Source of the DNA: Mesorhizobium sp. M7A.F.Ca.US.008.03.1.1
GTDB taxonomy: Bacteria; Pseudomonadota; Alphaproteobacteria; Rhizobiales; Rhizobiaceae
NCBI RefSeq assembly: GCF_003997495.1
Contig: NZ_RZRU01000004.1
Coordinates: forward strand, 186,001-250,000
DNA: 64,000 nucleotides
Reading direction: 5' to 3'
Shown: piece by piece, positions 16,529 through 22,281 of the stretch
Layout of the letters: each line of letters opens with the position of its first letter
How positions within the stretch are numbered: the stretch's first letter is position 1
Position numbers and translations under genes: made by a program
The notes under the pieces: model-generated
Seen by the model: the letters and a program-made list of their open reading frames with translations, nothing else
Database searches by the model: none
Told to the model about the DNA's origin: nothing

Positions 16529-18148
16529 ATGGCTGCTTCCGAAACGATCCTCAGCGTCAAGGACCTGCGCGTCCGCTTCCGCACGCTTGACGGCGCCGTC
16601 GAGGCGGTCAAGGGCATCAACATCCACGTCAATGCGGGCGAGACCGTTGCCGTGGTTGGCGAATCCGGATCCGGCAAGAGCCAGACGATGATGGCGGCGA
16701 TGAGCCTGCTGGCATCGAATGGCGAAGCGACAGGCAGTGTCGACTATCGCGGCCGCAACCTTCTGACTCTGAGCAAATCCGAACTCAACAAGGTCCGCGG
16801 CGCCAAGATCAGCATGATCTTCCAGGAGCCGATGACCTCGCTCGATCCGCTCTATTCGATCGGCAACCAGTTGATCGAACCGATCCGACGGCATCGGGGC
16901 CTAAACACCGCAGAGGCGCACGAAGAGGCGCTCAAGCTTTTGCGGCTGGTGCATATTCCAGATCCCGAGCGGCGGATGAAATCCTATCCGCACGAAATGT
17001 CCGGTGGCCAGCGCCAGCGCGTCATGATCGCCATGGCGCTCGCCAACGATCCCGACATTCTCATCGCCGACGAGCCGACGACGGCGCTCGACGTGACCAT
17101 ACAGGCGCAGATCCTGATGCTTCTGGCCGAATTGCAGCGCAAGCTCGGCACGGCGATCGTCTTCATCACCCACGATCTTGGCATCGTCCGCCGCTTTGCC
17201 GATCGGGTCTATGTCATGCGCCAGGGCGAAGTTGTCGAGGAGGGCGAGGCCGAAGCCATCTTCGTCAACCCACAGCATGCCTACACGAAAATGCTGCTGG
17301 CGGCCGAGCCGACCGGCAGCAAGGCGCCGCCGCCCGCCAATGCTCCAGTGTTGCTCGAAGGCAGGAATGTCGAAGTGACGTTCAGGATCGGCGGCGGGTT
17401 TCTTGCTGGTGAACCGCTGATGCTGCGTGCCGTCGATCACATTTCCATCCGGCTGCAGCGCAACCAGACCATCGGCATCGTTGGTGAATCCGGCTCGGGC
17501 AAGTCGACCCTCGGCCGCGCCTTGCTGCGGCTGTTGCCGAGCGACGGGCTCATCCGTTTCGGCGATCGCGACATTTCCCAAGCCGACCGGCAGGCGATGC
17601 GGCCGCTGCGGCGCCAGATGCAGCTCGTCTTCCAGGACCCGTTCGGCTCGCTGTCGCCGCGCATGACCGTCGGCCAGGTCATCACCGAAGGACTTCTGGT
17701 GCATGAGCCTGATCTTTCGGGCAAGCAGCGTGATCAACGCGCGGTCGAGGCCTTGCGCGAGGTCGGCCTCGACCCCAACGCGCGCAATCGCTACCCGCAC
17801 GAATTCTCCGGCGGCCAGCGGCAGCGCATTGCCATTGCCCGCGCCATGATCCTCAAGCCCAGGCTGGTGGTATTGGATGAGCCGACCTCTGCGCTCGATC
17901 GCTCTGTGCAGAAACAGATCGTCGAACTGCTGCGCAAGCTGCAGGCGGACCACGAACTGTCCTATCTCTTCATCAGCCACGATCTGTCGGTGGTGCGCGC
18001 CATGGCCGACTACATCATCGTCATGAAGCAGGGCAAGATCGTCGAGGAGGGACCGACCGAGGCGATCTTCAGCAATCCGCAGCACGTCTACACACAGACG
18101 CTGATGGCCGCCGCGATCGACGTGACGCGATTTCGCCTGAGCGCCTGA
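16529..18148 (+). CDS. Peptide ABC transporter dual ATPase (OppD-OppF fusion)
   Basis: One polypeptide with two ABC ATPase domains replacing separate OppD and OppF. First domain: Walker [11 protein letters not shown], signature MSGGQRQR, Walker B ILIADEP. Second domain: Walker [12 protein letters not shown], signature FSGGQRQR, Walker [13 protein letters not shown]. The first domain has the OppD-type linker after its H-loop. The ATG at 16529 ([10 protein letters not shown]) has GGGGA upstream; an ATG at 16514 would add five residues. Fused two-domain ATPases are common in alphaproteobacterial peptide importers. Confidence 0.93.
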
Positions 18149-18181
18149 ACCGGGCTCCGCACCGAGGCATTGGCTGTCCGC

Positions 18182-18526
18182 TCAATTCGCGGACCTCGGG
18201 CACTTGCGCGCTCGCACAGCGGCAATGGCATCCTGTTGCCGCTTAAGCCGGTCAATCCTGGCTGTTTCACGGTTGGCTACCGCCGTCTGCACGCGTGAGC
18301 CGCCGAGCAGCCAGCGTGGAACATTGGTGTTGGCGACCTTGCCGCGCGTGATTGCCGTTTGCGAGATGTCACGGGCGACGTCTCCCATCGCACTGTTGAG
18401 GTCGGTGCACGTCATCGAATCGTATTTCGCTGGATCGACGGTTCTGCCGAGCGATGAACAGCCAGCGACGAGAACCAGCGTCATCACAAGAATCAAGGGC
18501 GGGGCTGTGGTTGAATTCAAATTCAT
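18182..18526 (-). CDS. Small predicted lipoprotein
   Basis: Unrecognised 114-residue protein. From the ATG at 18526 the N-terminus is hydrophobic and ends in a lipobox VAGC with Cys23, so it should be lipidated and membrane-anchored in the periplasm. The mature part has MTCTDLNSAMGDVARDISQTAI and a basic C-terminus with a second Cys. An in-frame ATG 14 codons upstream would give a less canonical signal. It points toward the opp operon end (convergent, 33 bp apart). Function unknown. Confidence 0.65.
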   Translation of the reverse strand: MNLNSTTAPPLILVMTLVLVAGCSSLGRTVDPAKYDSMTCTDLNSAMGDVARDISQTAITRGKVANTNVPRWLLGGSRVQTAVANRETARIDRLKRQQDAIAAVRARKCPRSAN

Positions 18527-18750
18527 GTCGCACTCGGCCCGCCGTTTCACTGACTCCATCAGGTCCATCGACCCTAAAGGCGACGGACCTTTTCGTCAAA
18601 ATATGCGGCCGCGAACGAACCTGCCACTGGGCCGGCCTGTCCGGCCGACGCAGGAACATTCTCAGTCACTCGAATTGCTATCTGCCGAGTGTTGGGCTCA
18701 ATCGCTGGCAAACGGAGAGGACCGGTTCCGGCGACGTCGGGCGGCCTTTC

Positions 18751-19194
18751 CTACGCTGCCTCGGCAACGAACGTCGACGGGGGGCAACCCCCGAGCACCG
18801 TCTGAGCGATGTCGGCGTCATTTTCATCGACGTGCGCCGTCACCAGAACGACCCCTTCGGCAACCTCCTTATCATCCGCCTTTATGGCGGCCATGGCGAA
18901 TGTCCCAAACAGACCGCCGGCAACGCCGCCACAGACCGCGCCAGCCATCGCTGTTGACAATACGCTCGCAGCAACAGGATTGATGCCATAGGCCGCAACG
19001 GCGCTCAGGCAGGCCAACCCGCCGGCGGCAGCGCCAAGTAACGATCCCAAAGCGGAAACCCGAAGAGATCCCGCCTCGTCATTGTAAGGCCCGATGATCG
19101 CGATCTGTACGCGAGGAATTCCGGCCGTCACCAAGTCGCTGGCGACCCGCGCCGCATCGGCGGGGGAATCAAAAAGTCTGCTAATCGTCGGCAT
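18751..19194 (-). CDS. YflT-like general stress membrane protein
   Basis: A 147-residue protein whose N-terminal 35 residues (RLFDSPADAARVASDLVTAGI) resemble the YflT / general-stress-protein-17M fold. The middle is a Gly/Ala-rich double hydrophobic hairpin (SLLGAAAGGLACLSAVAAYG and GAVCGGVAGGLFGTFAMAAI) of glycine-zipper character, so membrane insertion is likely. The 71-aa gene ends 6 bp upstream, which indicates cotranscription. Function in the stress response is inferred from family resemblance and neighbours. Confidence 0.68.
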   Translation of the reverse strand: MPTISRLFDSPADAARVASDLVTAGIPRVQIAIIGPYNDEAGSLRVSALGSLLGAAAGGLACLSAVAAYGINPVAASVLSTAMAGAVCGGVAGGLFGTFAMAAIKADDKEVAEGVVLVTAHVDENDADIAQTVLGGCPPSTFVAEAA

Positions 19195-19200
19195 GGTCGC

Positions 19201-19416
19201 TTAACGTTTCTGGTTGTTCAGGAGCGTGTCGGTGAGGAATGACGCGGCAATCAGGTCGTCAACCTCGATTCGGCCCTCGCCGCCCTCCATGATGGCCGCG
19301 ACCTTCTGGAAGGTCTTCATCTCGTCTTCGGTAATCCGGGCTTCCTGCATCCTGGCCCTGATCTCTGTCATGCGCATGCTCAGGGCATGGGATCTTTTGG
19401 CTTCACGGTTGGACAT
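19201..19416 (-). CDS. 71-aa hypothetical protein
   Basis: Small, charged, soluble protein with predicted amphipathic helices (SHALSMRMTEIRARMQEARI) and an acidic middle. No family recognised. A single ATG start lies 6 bp-coupled to the following YflT-like gene, so the two are probably one transcript. Codon use is like the neighbours, which favours a real gene. Confidence 0.55.
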   Translation of the reverse strand: MSNREAKRSHALSMRMTEIRARMQEARITEDEMKTFQKVAAIMEGGEGRIEVDDLIAASFLTDTLLNNQKR

Positions 19417-19629
19417 GCTGCTGCTCTTAGTTTCACTTGATCACTTTTTCCCGCCACCCGAATTTGGGGCAAGGGCAGACGTTTCCAACCTGGACTTCGG
19501 TCGGGCAGGGGTCGGACCTAAGTCTGGTCGTGAGGCGCAATGATCTTGCCGACGGCGCCGCCAAAGCATGATCGGGATGCGTGCCAAAAGTGGCCCGACT
19601 CCATCAAGAATCGGGCCGGAGATCTGTGG

Positions 19630-19920
19630 TCAGTACCCGTCGTTTTCGATCACCACGGGATGGTGCCGATGGTGATGGCGATGGGTGGAGACGGAACCTG
19701 TCACGACAACGGTATCGCGGTGATGATGCCGGCGCCCATGGTCATAGAACGCCACAGTACCATGGCGGCGGTGGTGCAAGCGCTGGCCGTCTTCGTTGAT
19801 GATCTTGACGCTGCCGTGATGTCGATGATGGGTTCTAACAACCACATCGGCTTCGGCTGCCGAAGCCATAACGGGCAGTCCAATGGAAAGCGCCAACGCG
19901 CACATGATCATTGTTTTCAT
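19630..19920 (-). CDS. Histidine-rich secreted small protein
   Basis: 96 residues: a signal peptide (MKTMIMCALALSIGLPVMASA, cleavage near residue 21) followed by a mature part of about 75 residues that contains all 17 histidines, in clusters such as THHRHH, RRHHHRD and THRHHHRHH. Such His clusters can bind Ni, Zn or Cu, so periplasmic metal buffering is a reasonable guess, but no known family was recognised. An EcfG-type promoter match lies about 40 bp upstream of its start. Confidence 0.68.
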   Translation of the reverse strand: MKTMIMCALALSIGLPVMASAAEADVVVRTHHRHHGSVKIINEDGQRLHHRRHGTVAFYDHGRRHHHRDTVVVTGSVSTHRHHHRHHPVVIENDGY

Positions 19921-19961
19921 TGCAATTTCTCCATGTTCTTAATTAGCCCTTCGTTGGATAA

Positions 19962-19984
19962 CTGCCCTTGATTGCTTTGGTTCC
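19962..19984 (-). promoter_or_regulatory. EcfG/RpoE2-type promoter match for the His-rich gene
   Basis: On the minus strand GGAAC (19984-19980) is followed after exactly 17 bases by GTT (19962-19960), the general-stress sigma factor consensus of Rhizobiales (GGAAC, 16-17 nt, GTT). The start codon is about 40 bp downstream, a suitable distance for a 5' leader. Seen directly; sigma usage is inferred. Confidence 0.6.
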
Positions 19985-20041
19985 GGGCGTCCGGCATCGA
20001 CCCGAATGTTCACGGGTCATCGCTGGATCTCGTCAAACGAC

Positions 20042-20066
20042 GGAACATTAGGCGTGCCTGATGGTT
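20042..20066 (+). promoter_or_regulatory. EcfG/RpoE2-type promoter match for the 24-aa peptide gene
   Basis: GGAAC at 20042-20046, then 17 bases, then GTT at 20064-20066. It is divergent from the equally spaced match at 19960-19984 and lies about 120 bp before the small peptide start. Two matches with identical spacing in one intergenic region make chance less likely. Confidence 0.55.
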
Positions 20067-20183
20067 TTATTTCTCGCAGCCGGGATCACGATTTGGTGTC
20101 TGCTGCGGATCAGTCGGCAAAGGCTGGTCGGCCCGCGTTCTCTGCCAGAGGCGCGGGCTTCCCCAGGCAACAGGAGAGAGATC

Positions 20184-20258
20184 ATGAACAATATCATTTG
20201 GCTCGTTGGAGCTGTGGTCATCGTGATAGCGATCTTGAGCTTTTTTGGCCTCCGCTGA
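20184..20258 (+). CDS. 24-aa single-helix membrane peptide
   Basis: A tiny ORF with an excellent ribosome site (GGAGAGAG, 3 bp before the ATG) encoding 24 residues: a polar MNN start, a continuous hydrophobic helix (IIWLVGAVVIVIAILSFF) and a GLR end with a positive charge. This looks like a real membrane microprotein. The same frame is open from an ATG at 20061, but that longer form has no ribosome site. I recall close relatives in other Rhizobiales, not verified here. Stress control is suggested by the EcfG-like promoter upstream. Confidence 0.7.
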   Translation: MNNIIWLVGAVVIVIAILSFFGLR

Positions 20259-20493
20259 GCGGGACGCGCGTACCAGTCGGGATGTTTCCGGAATCTGTCC
20301 GCACGTACGAAAGCATCAGGCGGCCGGTTGAGGCCGTCTGGTCACTGTCCAGTGCAACACGCATCGCTGTCGACCGGCCACAGAGACACGGCGAATAGGC
20401 GTTCGCTCATCCGACTGGCGGGGGACGCGAGTAATCTCGCTCAAGGAGCAGGTGGAGCGCCGAAGTCGGGATGCGCTAACTCCTTGTTTTTTC

Positions 20494-20570
20494 TGGTCGG
20501 AGTGGCAGGATTTGAACCTGCGACCCCCTCGTCCCGAACGAGGTGCGCTACCAGGCTGCGCTACACTCCG
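20494..20570 (-). tRNA. tRNA-Pro (anticodon CGG)
   Basis: A 77-nt cloverleaf on the minus strand. Acceptor arm CGGAGTG pairs with CACTCCG; encoded 3' ACCA end; T-loop GGTTCAAATCC; anticodon stem CCTCG/CGAGG with loop TTCGGGA, so the anticodon is CGG. Reads the proline codon CCG, frequent in GC-rich genomes. No IS element or integrase is adjacent. Confidence 0.95.
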
Positions 20571-20686
20571 TGACCAGACCGCGGGCTTATAGCCGCCACA
20601 CTTCGTTCCTGCAAGCGGCATGGCAGCACTTCTGTCGCATTTCGTCGAGCATAGTCCGAAAGGCTCGGATTCCCTCACGGGATAAA

Positions 20687-20717
20687 CGTGGCTTAAAGCC
20701 TTCTGTGCTAAGCCGCG
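20687..20717 (+). promoter_or_regulatory. Leader hairpin upstream of the phosphohexomutase
   Basis: CGTGGCTTA (20687-20695) pairs with TAAGCCGCG (20709-20717): nine base pairs including one G-U, 13-nt loop, 44 bp before the proposed TTG start. No T-run follows. Could be a leader structure; function unknown. Confidence 0.35.
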
Positions 20718-20760
20718 CCCTCGACAACTCGTAATTTCCGCCATTCGGAGTTTTCCAGTC

Positions 20761-22281
20761 TTGTCCTTCAGCATCGTTGGCGACGCACGGCCCAACAGTT
20801 TCAAATTCGAAACCGAAGCGCTGATCAAGCCATCCGGCTTTCGCGAATATGATGCGCGCTGGTGGTTCGGCCATCCCGGCTCCGCGCAACTGCCGGAGCT
20901 CAATCTGGTCGGCGTCCAGGCACTTGGCATGGGGCTTGGCACGCTGATCCGCCGTGTCGGTGCCGGTCCCGATATCGTCACCGGGCATGATTTCCGCTCC
21001 TATTCGCTGTCGATCAAGCTGGCGCTGGTGTCGGGCCTGATGGCCGCGGGCGCACGGGTGAGGGACATCGGCTTGGCGTTGTCGCCGACGGCCTATTTTG
21101 CCCAGTTCGCACTGGACTTGCCTTCGGTCGCCATGGTCACCGCCTCGCATAACGAGAATGGCTGGACCGGCGTCAAGATGGGTGCGGCGCGGCCGCTGAC
21201 TTTCGGACCGGAACAGATGAGCGCGCTGAAGGCGATCGTGCTGGCTGGTGATTTCGATCTCGTCGGCGGCGGCTCCTACGATTTCGTCCGCGATTTTCGC
21301 GCCACTTATCTCGACGATCTGACCAAGGACCAGCGCATCGCCCGAAAGCTGAAAGTGGTCGTCGCCTGCGGCAACGGCACCGCCGGGGCTTTCGCGCCGC
21401 AAGCGCTGCAGCGCATCGGCTGCGAGGTCATCCCGCTCGATGTCGAACTCGACCATACGTTTCCGCGCTACAACCCCAATCCCGAGGACATGCAGATGCT
21501 GCATGCCATCAGGGAGAAGGTGCTGGAGACTGGAGCCGATGTCGGCCTTGGCTTCGATGGCGACGGTGATCGCTGCGGCGTCGTCGACAATGAGGGCAAT
21601 GAGATTTTTGCCGACAAGGTGGGTGTGATGCTGGCGCGCGATATCTCCAGCCTGCATCCGGGCTCGACCTTCGTCGTCGACGTCAAGTCGACCGGCCTGT
21701 TCAACACAGACAGCGTGCTGCGCGCGAACGGCGCCATCACCGACTACTGGAAGACCGGCCACTCCTACATAAAGCGCCGCGTCGCCGAGCTTGGCGCCGT
21801 CGCCGGTTTCGAAAAGTCGGGCCATTTCTTCTTCAACCCGCCGATCGGCCGCGGCTACGACGACGGCTTGGTCACCGCCATCGCCATCTGCCAGATGCTG
21901 GATCGCAGTCCCGGCAGTTCGATGGCCGATCTCTACCGCGCGCTGCCGCTGACCTTCGGCACGCCGACCATGTCGCCGCACTGCGCGGACGATATGAAGT
22001 ATGGCGTTGTCGAGCGGGTGGTTGCCGACTTTCAGGCCATGAAGCGGGATGGAATGGTCTTCGCTGGCCAGAAGATCGCAGACCTCATCACCGTCAACGG
22101 CGTGCGCGTCGTCGCCGATGACGGCACCTGGGGGTTGGTGCGCGCCTCGTCGAACAAGCCGGAACTGGTCGTGGTCGTCGAAAGCCCGGTGTCCTCGCAG
22201 CGTCGACGGGAGATGTTCGAGGCTGTCGACGCCGTGCTGCGCCGCAGCCCCGAGGTGGGCGCCTACAACCAGACCTTTTGA
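20761..22281 (+). CDS. Phosphomannomutase/phosphoglucomutase
   Basis: Alpha-D-phosphohexomutase of the short type (about 506 aa), probably making mannose-1-phosphate for the next gene. Motifs: VTASHNENGW with Ser129 as the phosphorylated residue, GFDGDGDRCG metal loop, EKSGHFFF sugar loop and RASSNKPELVV phosphate loop. The proposed start is TTG with GGAG 10 bp upstream; no in-frame ATG precedes the FREYDARW region, so a non-ATG start is needed. The guanylyltransferase gene starts 11 bp after its stop. Confidence 0.88.
   Translation: MSFSIVGDARPNSFKFETEALIKPSGFREYDARWWFGHPGSAQLPELNLVGVQALGMGLGTLIRRVGAGPDIVTGHDFRSYSLSIKLALVSGLMAAGARVRDIGLALSPTAYFAQFALDLPSVAMVTASHNENGWTGVKMGAARPLTFGPEQMSALKAIVLAGDFDLVGGGSYDFVRDFRATYLDDLTKDQRIARKLKVVVACGNGTAGAFAPQALQRIGCEVIPLDVELDHTFPRYNPNPEDMQMLHAIREKVLETGADVGLGFDGDGDRCGVVDNEGNEIFADKVGVMLARDISSLHPGSTFVVDVKSTGLFNTDSVLRANGAITDYWKTGHSYIKRRVAELGAVAGFEKSGHFFFNPPIGRGYDDGLVTAIAICQMLDRSPGSSMADLYRALPLTFGTPTMSPHCADDMKYGVVERVVADFQAMKRDGMVFAGQKIADLITVNGVRVVADDGTWGLVRASSNKPELVVVVESPVSSQRRREMFEAVDAVLRRSPEVGAYNQTF

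Follow-up and report, generated by a model that had tools for sequence, protein, structure and literature searches.

A structured RNA between an EcfG-type promoter and a conserved 24-aa membrane peptide in Mesorhizobium suggests a joined RNA and micropeptide gene

YohP of E. coli has 27 aa; its production lowers the proton motive force and alters lipids, and its deletion makes cells more sensitive to ciprofloxacin and oxidative stress (excerpts of PMC12719787). It is made under stress or in stationary phase (excerpts of PMC12719787 and PMC7549839). The 24-aa peptide analyzed here resembles YohP as a tiny single-helix membrane protein conserved across species, and YohP appears to be its best analogue. 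By PF25659 it is not a member of the YohP family: the best score is 13.0 bits against a cut-off of 27, only two betaproteobacterial members give hits, and the peptide of the window (the whole 64,000-nt stretch of DNA that was analyzed) gives none. SEP6 of Sinorhizobium meliloti is shorter than 30 aa, has a predicted helix, is found in the membrane pellet and is conserved among Hyphomicrobiales, with translation demonstrated (excerpts of PMC10117765). Compared by these descriptions only, SEP6 shares the length below 30 aa and the predicted helix with our peptide, and the two may be the same.

For the RNA that precedes the peptide, the best analogue appears to be GsrN, a small RNA of Caulobacter driven by the general stress sigma factor EcfG (excerpts of PMC5869019). 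The RNA family shares with GsrN an EcfG-type promoter. As to the exposed C-rich loop in the 5' hairpin of GsrN, many stand-alone copies of the family have a C-rich loop in their first hairpin (by eye), and the window copy has none. Unlike GsrN, it is multi-copy and has a three-hairpin fold. Outside Caulobacteraceae, the excerpts of PMC5869019 recognize GsrN homologues by a gene close to ecfG, nepR or phyR, whereas the RNA copies are not near nepR here (contigs C44 and C22 versus C29, in an assembly of 74 contigs). A report on small RNAs of M. huakuii (PMC5596092) gives 40 candidates; its available excerpts do not contain the term EcfG, and an overlap with our RNA family is possible.

The original prediction for this locus, made from the sequence alone, was a compact cluster of five small genes forming one envelope-stress unit under two EcfG-like promoters, seen as two divergent GGAAC-N17-GTT matches in the 263-bp gap between a His-rich gene and the peptide (19920 to 20184). 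All five ORFs and both matches are present, and the structured RNA between promoter and peptide is an addition to that account. The features are as follows.

18182-18526, minus strand: small lipoprotein (ORF list; lipobox LVAGC by eye; part of the conserved gene order)
18751-19194, minus strand: 147-aa protein, glycine-rich, weakly YflT-like (ORF list; 6 bp behind the 71-aa gene)
19201-19416, minus strand: 71-aa protein (ORF list; family in 103 of 119 genus genomes)
19461-19486, minus strand: EcfG-type site of the 71-aa gene, altered (comparison of both boxes with sister loci)
19630-19920, minus strand: His-rich secreted protein, 96 aa (ORF list; signal peptide by eye)
19960-19984, minus strand: EcfG-type promoter of the His-rich gene, GGAAC-N17-GTT (motif scan; position conserved)
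20042-20066, plus strand: EcfG-type promoter upstream of the peptide, GGAAC-N17-GTT (motif scan; conserved in genus copies)
20048-20061, plus strand: imperfect palindrome TTAG-N6-CTGA in the promoter spacer (sequence)
20068-20183, plus strand: structured RNA, the 5' leader of the peptide (27-locus alignment, pair counts, covariance model, fold z)
20077-20105, plus strand: RNA hairpin 1 (27-locus alignment)
20108-20129, plus strand: RNA hairpin 2 (27-locus alignment)
20130-20159, plus strand: RNA hairpin 3, followed by the ribosome-binding site (27-locus alignment)
20172-20176, plus strand: Shine-Dalgarno-like AGGAG, 7 nt before the peptide start codon (sequence)
20184-20258, plus strand: 24-aa single-helix membrane peptide MNNIIWLVGAVVIVIAILSFFGLR (ORF; conservation)
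20494-20570, minus strand: tRNA-Pro (CGG) gene, between peptide and pgm (tRNA detection in the window)

The window holds four GGAAC-N17-GTT sites against 3.85 expected, and 57 of 100 shuffles of the 64 kb reach at least four. With the number of motifs at chance level, the promoter claim must rest on conserved position. A scan of 18100-20800 for sigma-70-type sites gave 0.

We therefore rely on the position of the motif relative to the peptide across genomes. Sixty genus regions were sampled, mostly best matches of the peptide search; 59 contain the peptide (L109 does not), among them a second copy from this genome, and with the window they make 60 genus copies. Of these, 53 carry an exact motif on the same strand in the 300 nt upstream, and 5 carry one there on the opposite strand. 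The 300 nt downstream hold the motif in 7 (same strand) and 1 (opposite), and the density over the genus loci is 0.096 per 300 nt. Many peptide copies outside the cluster have unrelated upstream sequence (by eye), so the link between motif and peptide is not due to shared descent alone; as copies of the peptide, and of the RNA, are related by descent, the counts given here are not independent. Family and class searches gave the motif upstream in 31 of 43 peptide loci (including one genus locus, L149) and in none on the opposite strand, at a density of 0.066.

Since EcfG is confined to Alphaproteobacteria (excerpts of PMC3892343), other groups serve as a control for the motif. A degenerate pattern covering the initial 12-13 codons, run against named genomes, gave at least 118 stretches, 80 of them analyzed as loci. 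Among the matches listed, the motif precedes the peptide in 43 of 61 alphaproteobacterial loci (opposite strand, 5) and in 1 of 18 others, a metagenome bin labeled Opitutus; the group labels come from record titles, and L219, which has the motif and no usable label, was omitted. Beta- and gammaproteobacterial copies without an EcfG-type motif include L207, L225, L253 and L270. Exact motifs are absent from 7 of the 60 genus copies, 12 of the 43 family and class loci and 18 of the 61 named alphaproteobacterial loci (the last among the matches listed).

The consensus of EcfG promoters is GGAAC-N16/17-GTT (excerpts of PMC6599016 and PMC4814048), and a promoter of this type at a conserved upstream position, by which members of the EcfG regulon are recognized, is what we find at the peptide, the His-rich gene and the RNA copies. 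This genome also encodes NepR, the anti-sigma factor of EcfG (57.4 bits, cut-off 25.7). The two promoters of the original prediction are thus backed by the conserved motif position upstream of the His-rich gene and the peptide, and the motif points to the general stress sigma factor; it does not of itself show the envelope stress originally proposed.

The spacer palindrome is near-invariant among the 26 distinct 25-mers of the syntenic group, and TTAG-N6-CTRA recurs inside the spacers of other EcfG-type promoters of the genus (L111-L140). The pattern, weak alone, has 52 matches in 31 genomes compared to 36 when it is read backward, and in 24 of 30 loci it is followed by GTT at the right distance (by eye). 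A second regulator might bind this palindrome.

Conservation of the short ORFs, on which the original prediction had staked itself, was checked, and the peptide is kept both in the genus and in named genomes. Matches at E<=10 are found in 95 of 119 genus genomes, and 13 of the matches listed in the genus search, the window's own included, are 100% identical. Although below the reach of most gene finders, as had been suspected, the ORF recurs across many Proteobacteria: among the matches listed, record titles name Rhizobium, Agrobacterium, Bradyrhizobium, Devosia, Microvirga, Paracoccus and Phenylobacterium, and also Polaromonas, Pseudomonas, Marinobacter and Thioalkalivibrio. In all 80 named loci among the matches listed the end of the ORF could be placed, after 24 residues in 77 and after 22 in 3. 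Variable sites in 53 distinct coding sequences fall 15/4/21 on codon positions 1/2/3, and a 16-row sample has M1, N2, I5, G9, V12, L18 and G22 as invariant columns. The peptide members scanned have no Pfam or NCBIfam hit above cut-off, and a plasmid search with the peptide gave no match. A full-text literature search with peptide sequence strings returned no paper, and in the topical literature we recognized nothing as the peptide or the RNA.

An extended reading of the same frame, with 65 aa (20061-20258), was rejected for three reasons: the start codon would overlap the -10 box, the upstream open frame varies from 5 to more than 300 codons (80 named loci among the matches listed), and a ribosome-binding site precedes the 24-aa start. 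A fixed operon partner was likewise rejected: among the matches listed, the nearest ORFs of named loci (103 from alphaproteobacterial or unlabeled loci and 29 from others) share no single family. Cyclopropane-synthase-type members, which probably come from one lineage, number 4, and RecJ domains were seen in up to 6 of the 29 ORFs that neighbor non-alphaproteobacterial copies; nothing else was commoner.

At this locus, 116 nt separate the promoter from the peptide start codon, and they fold into three hairpins (fold z -3.45 for 20073-20164). From promoter to start codon, the sequence aligns well in 27 syntenic loci with nearly constant length (alignment A3). The fold pairs 97.1% of the A3 cells and shows two-sided change in 5 pairs, compared to a mean of 0.7 in shuffles (0 of 500 as high) and 4 in the best slid control. 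A covariance model built from A3 (R1), which the window copy matches at 134.8 bits by construction, found the RNA at E<=0.1 in 28 of 41 genus genomes, and palindromic EcfG-type promoters stand directly upstream of many of the new copies.

A second covariance model (R2) was built from 25 copies. At E<=0.01 it finds the RNA in 47 of 61 genus genomes, which have as many as 17 copies each. Across the family it matches 13 of 101 genomes; two of these belong to the genus, and the other 11 matches are weak (E 1.3e-4 to 8.6e-3). From 40 further regions we obtained 42 strong copies outside R2 (at least 35.7 bits), with 18 weaker or reverse-strand matches set aside. The R2 and 42-copy alignments were fitted to the model structure and so lean towards it. 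With this caveat, R2 has two-sided change in 11 of 22 pairs and 29 cells; shuffles average 3.9 pairs and 7.1 cells, none of 500 equals the observed value, and the best slid control reaches 5 pairs. The 42 copies pair in 878 of 917 cells and have 60 two-sided compensatory cells in 13 pairs, compared to a shuffled mean of 12.0 in 6.1 pairs, and none of 300 shuffles reaches the observed number. Against Rfam 15 the window gave the tRNA only; beyond that there was one chance-level hit elsewhere and one among 20 RNA copies.

The RNA copies carry the promoter as well. Of the 20 in L360-L379, 13 have the exact motif directly upstream and 3 others have it with one mismatch. Among the 42 copies outside R2 the exact motif lies within 50 nt upstream in 23, and in 31 with at most one mismatch, compared to 0 on the reverse strand; 11 have no motif even at one mismatch, and 19 have the spacer palindrome.

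RNA and peptide behave as separate modules. In 58 other RNA copies (the 42 together with 16 of the L360-L379 set of 20), the peptide never follows within 400 nt, as far as the stretches reach. The peptide family is in turn wider than the RNA, with other loci having an EcfG-type promoter and no RNA, and its non-alphaproteobacterial copies mostly lack the motif; accordingly, an RNA gene and a micropeptide gene appear to be fused here. Promoter, RNA and peptide are found in the same order at one other locus, in four copies (L083, L086, L088 and L101). The 10 nt after hairpin 3 contain a mean of 2.2 T in the 27 peptide-linked copies compared to 4.3 in a further 57 (p 2.6e-7 by a Mann-Whitney test whose sequences are related), and hairpin 3 has no strong T run even in stand-alone copies.

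Our preferred reading, which we consider likely, is that 20042-20066 would be a promoter of EcfG whose transcript contains the three-hairpin RNA, one copy of a dispersed multi-copy family of the genus, and reads on into the 24-aa membrane peptide. On the simplest reading, an EcfG-driven RNA gene would have been joined to an EcfG-driven micropeptide gene with a weakened terminator. Hairpin 3 may end the stand-alone RNAs, and the poorer T tail here would let transcription continue. EcfG would also drive the divergent gene of the His-rich secreted protein. We infer that the peptide is translated and that during stress it may affect the membrane much as YohP does.

The peptide then counts among the probable targets that recur for the general stress sigma factor of Alphaproteobacteria, and as it is too short for most gene finders, an effector of the stress response may have been overlooked. 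A multi-copy RNA family with the same kind of promoter and no Rfam match would add an unstudied RNA layer to the stress response of the genus. More tentatively, and as a real possibility that is somewhat less likely than not, the RNAs may be a new EcfG-driven three-hairpin sRNA family that acts in trans in this response, one copy of which captured a peptide gene to become a dual-function RNA, both regulator and micropeptide message.

Alternatively, the RNA may be a mere 5' untranslated leader that stabilizes the message or tunes translation of the peptide, with no activity of its own. Its place directly between promoter and ribosome-binding site, at near-constant length in 27 loci, is what such a leader would show, as is the position of some other copies before a 54-aa or 143-aa ORF. 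We nevertheless find this rather unlikely, for several RNA copies have no evident downstream ORF in a simple scan (e.g. L360, L364, L365, L368 and L369), and most of the 42 copies outside R2 have none recognized in such a scan.

The proteins found after RNA copies are a 54-aa protein (MTDKxATTYVVSVFEKPHWRTV...; L361, L362, L367 and, in part, L374) and one of about 143 aa (MKHQT...; L376, L377, L451 and, with 141 aa, L379).

The high copy number of the RNA and its near restriction to the genus would also suit a dispersed REP-type repeat that carries its promoter along as it spreads and owes its fold to being palindromic, without being a functional RNA; some copies indeed share sequence past the ends of the model (by eye). 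Two-sided compensatory changes and an EcfG-type promoter at a fixed distance are unexpected of a plain repeat, which makes this explanation unlikely. It is very unlikely that the peptide is a type I toxin silenced by its leader or by an antisense RNA: it is very short and hydrophobic, often has several copies per genome and here has a structured leader, but the leaders of other copies are short, the motif standing 48-75 nt ahead of the start codon, and a scan for sigma-70-type sites recognized no antisense promoter opposite the ORF. That the motifs are chance matches in GC-rich DNA, as the window count and the 36 backward-read palindrome matches might suggest, can practically be dismissed given their conserved position and strand at the peptide, the His-rich gene and the RNA copies.

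The gene order of the cluster is conserved in sister loci: an ABC transporter comes first, then, sharing a strand, the lipoprotein, 147-aa, 71-aa and His-rich genes; the peptide lies on the opposite strand, and in some loci pgm and manC follow it. The cluster of the original prediction therefore stands as a gene order; it looks like several transcription units, not a single unit under two promoters.

We searched 250 nt upstream of each gene for the motif; some loci are counted twice in the rows, and distinct loci were counted separately. The His-rich gene has it in 32 of 32 rows (28 distinct loci), at -64 to -67, with the opposite strand giving 7 rows. Upstream of the 71-aa gene, 30 of 40 rows contain the motif, or 27 of 33 when each locus is counted once; the opposite strand has it in 23. 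The motif of this gene is altered in both boxes in the window and three near relatives (L051, L054 and L055), and L037 and L038 also lack it. For the 147-aa gene, the 4 of 37 rows with the motif are all copies outside the cluster, and the opposite strand has none. The lipoprotein lacks the motif in all 36 rows, with 13 on the opposite strand. In the window cluster, intact motifs are found only at the His-rich gene and the peptide.

Neither the His-rich nor the 71-aa protein scores above the cut-off of any Pfam or NCBIfam family. The 147-aa protein had been called YflT-like, and a weak likeness is what is left of this: PF11181 gives 13.7 bits (E 0.091), below its cut-off of 26.2.

Many sister clusters (L052, L057, L071, L072 and others) contain a 30-aa membrane peptide between the 71-aa and His-rich genes. 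In 30 of 33 rows, collected with a loose threshold and including a few that are not intact ORFs, an EcfG-type motif of its own stands 51-56 nt upstream. A scan finds no such peptide at the window locus, and this genome has it twice elsewhere (G000:C7:103403-103492 and G000:C22:290140-290226). It occurs in 8 of the 101 family genomes searched.

The many motifs on the opposite strand are explained, at least in part, by the motif of this 30-aa peptide gene and by a conserved plus-strand EcfG-type site between the lipoprotein and 147-aa genes. The latter site is directed into the 3' end of the 147-aa gene (L052, L061, L071, L073, L082, L095 and L097) and is perhaps the source of an antisense RNA. 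Its version in the window lies at 18653-18677 on the plus strand, with an altered -10 box.
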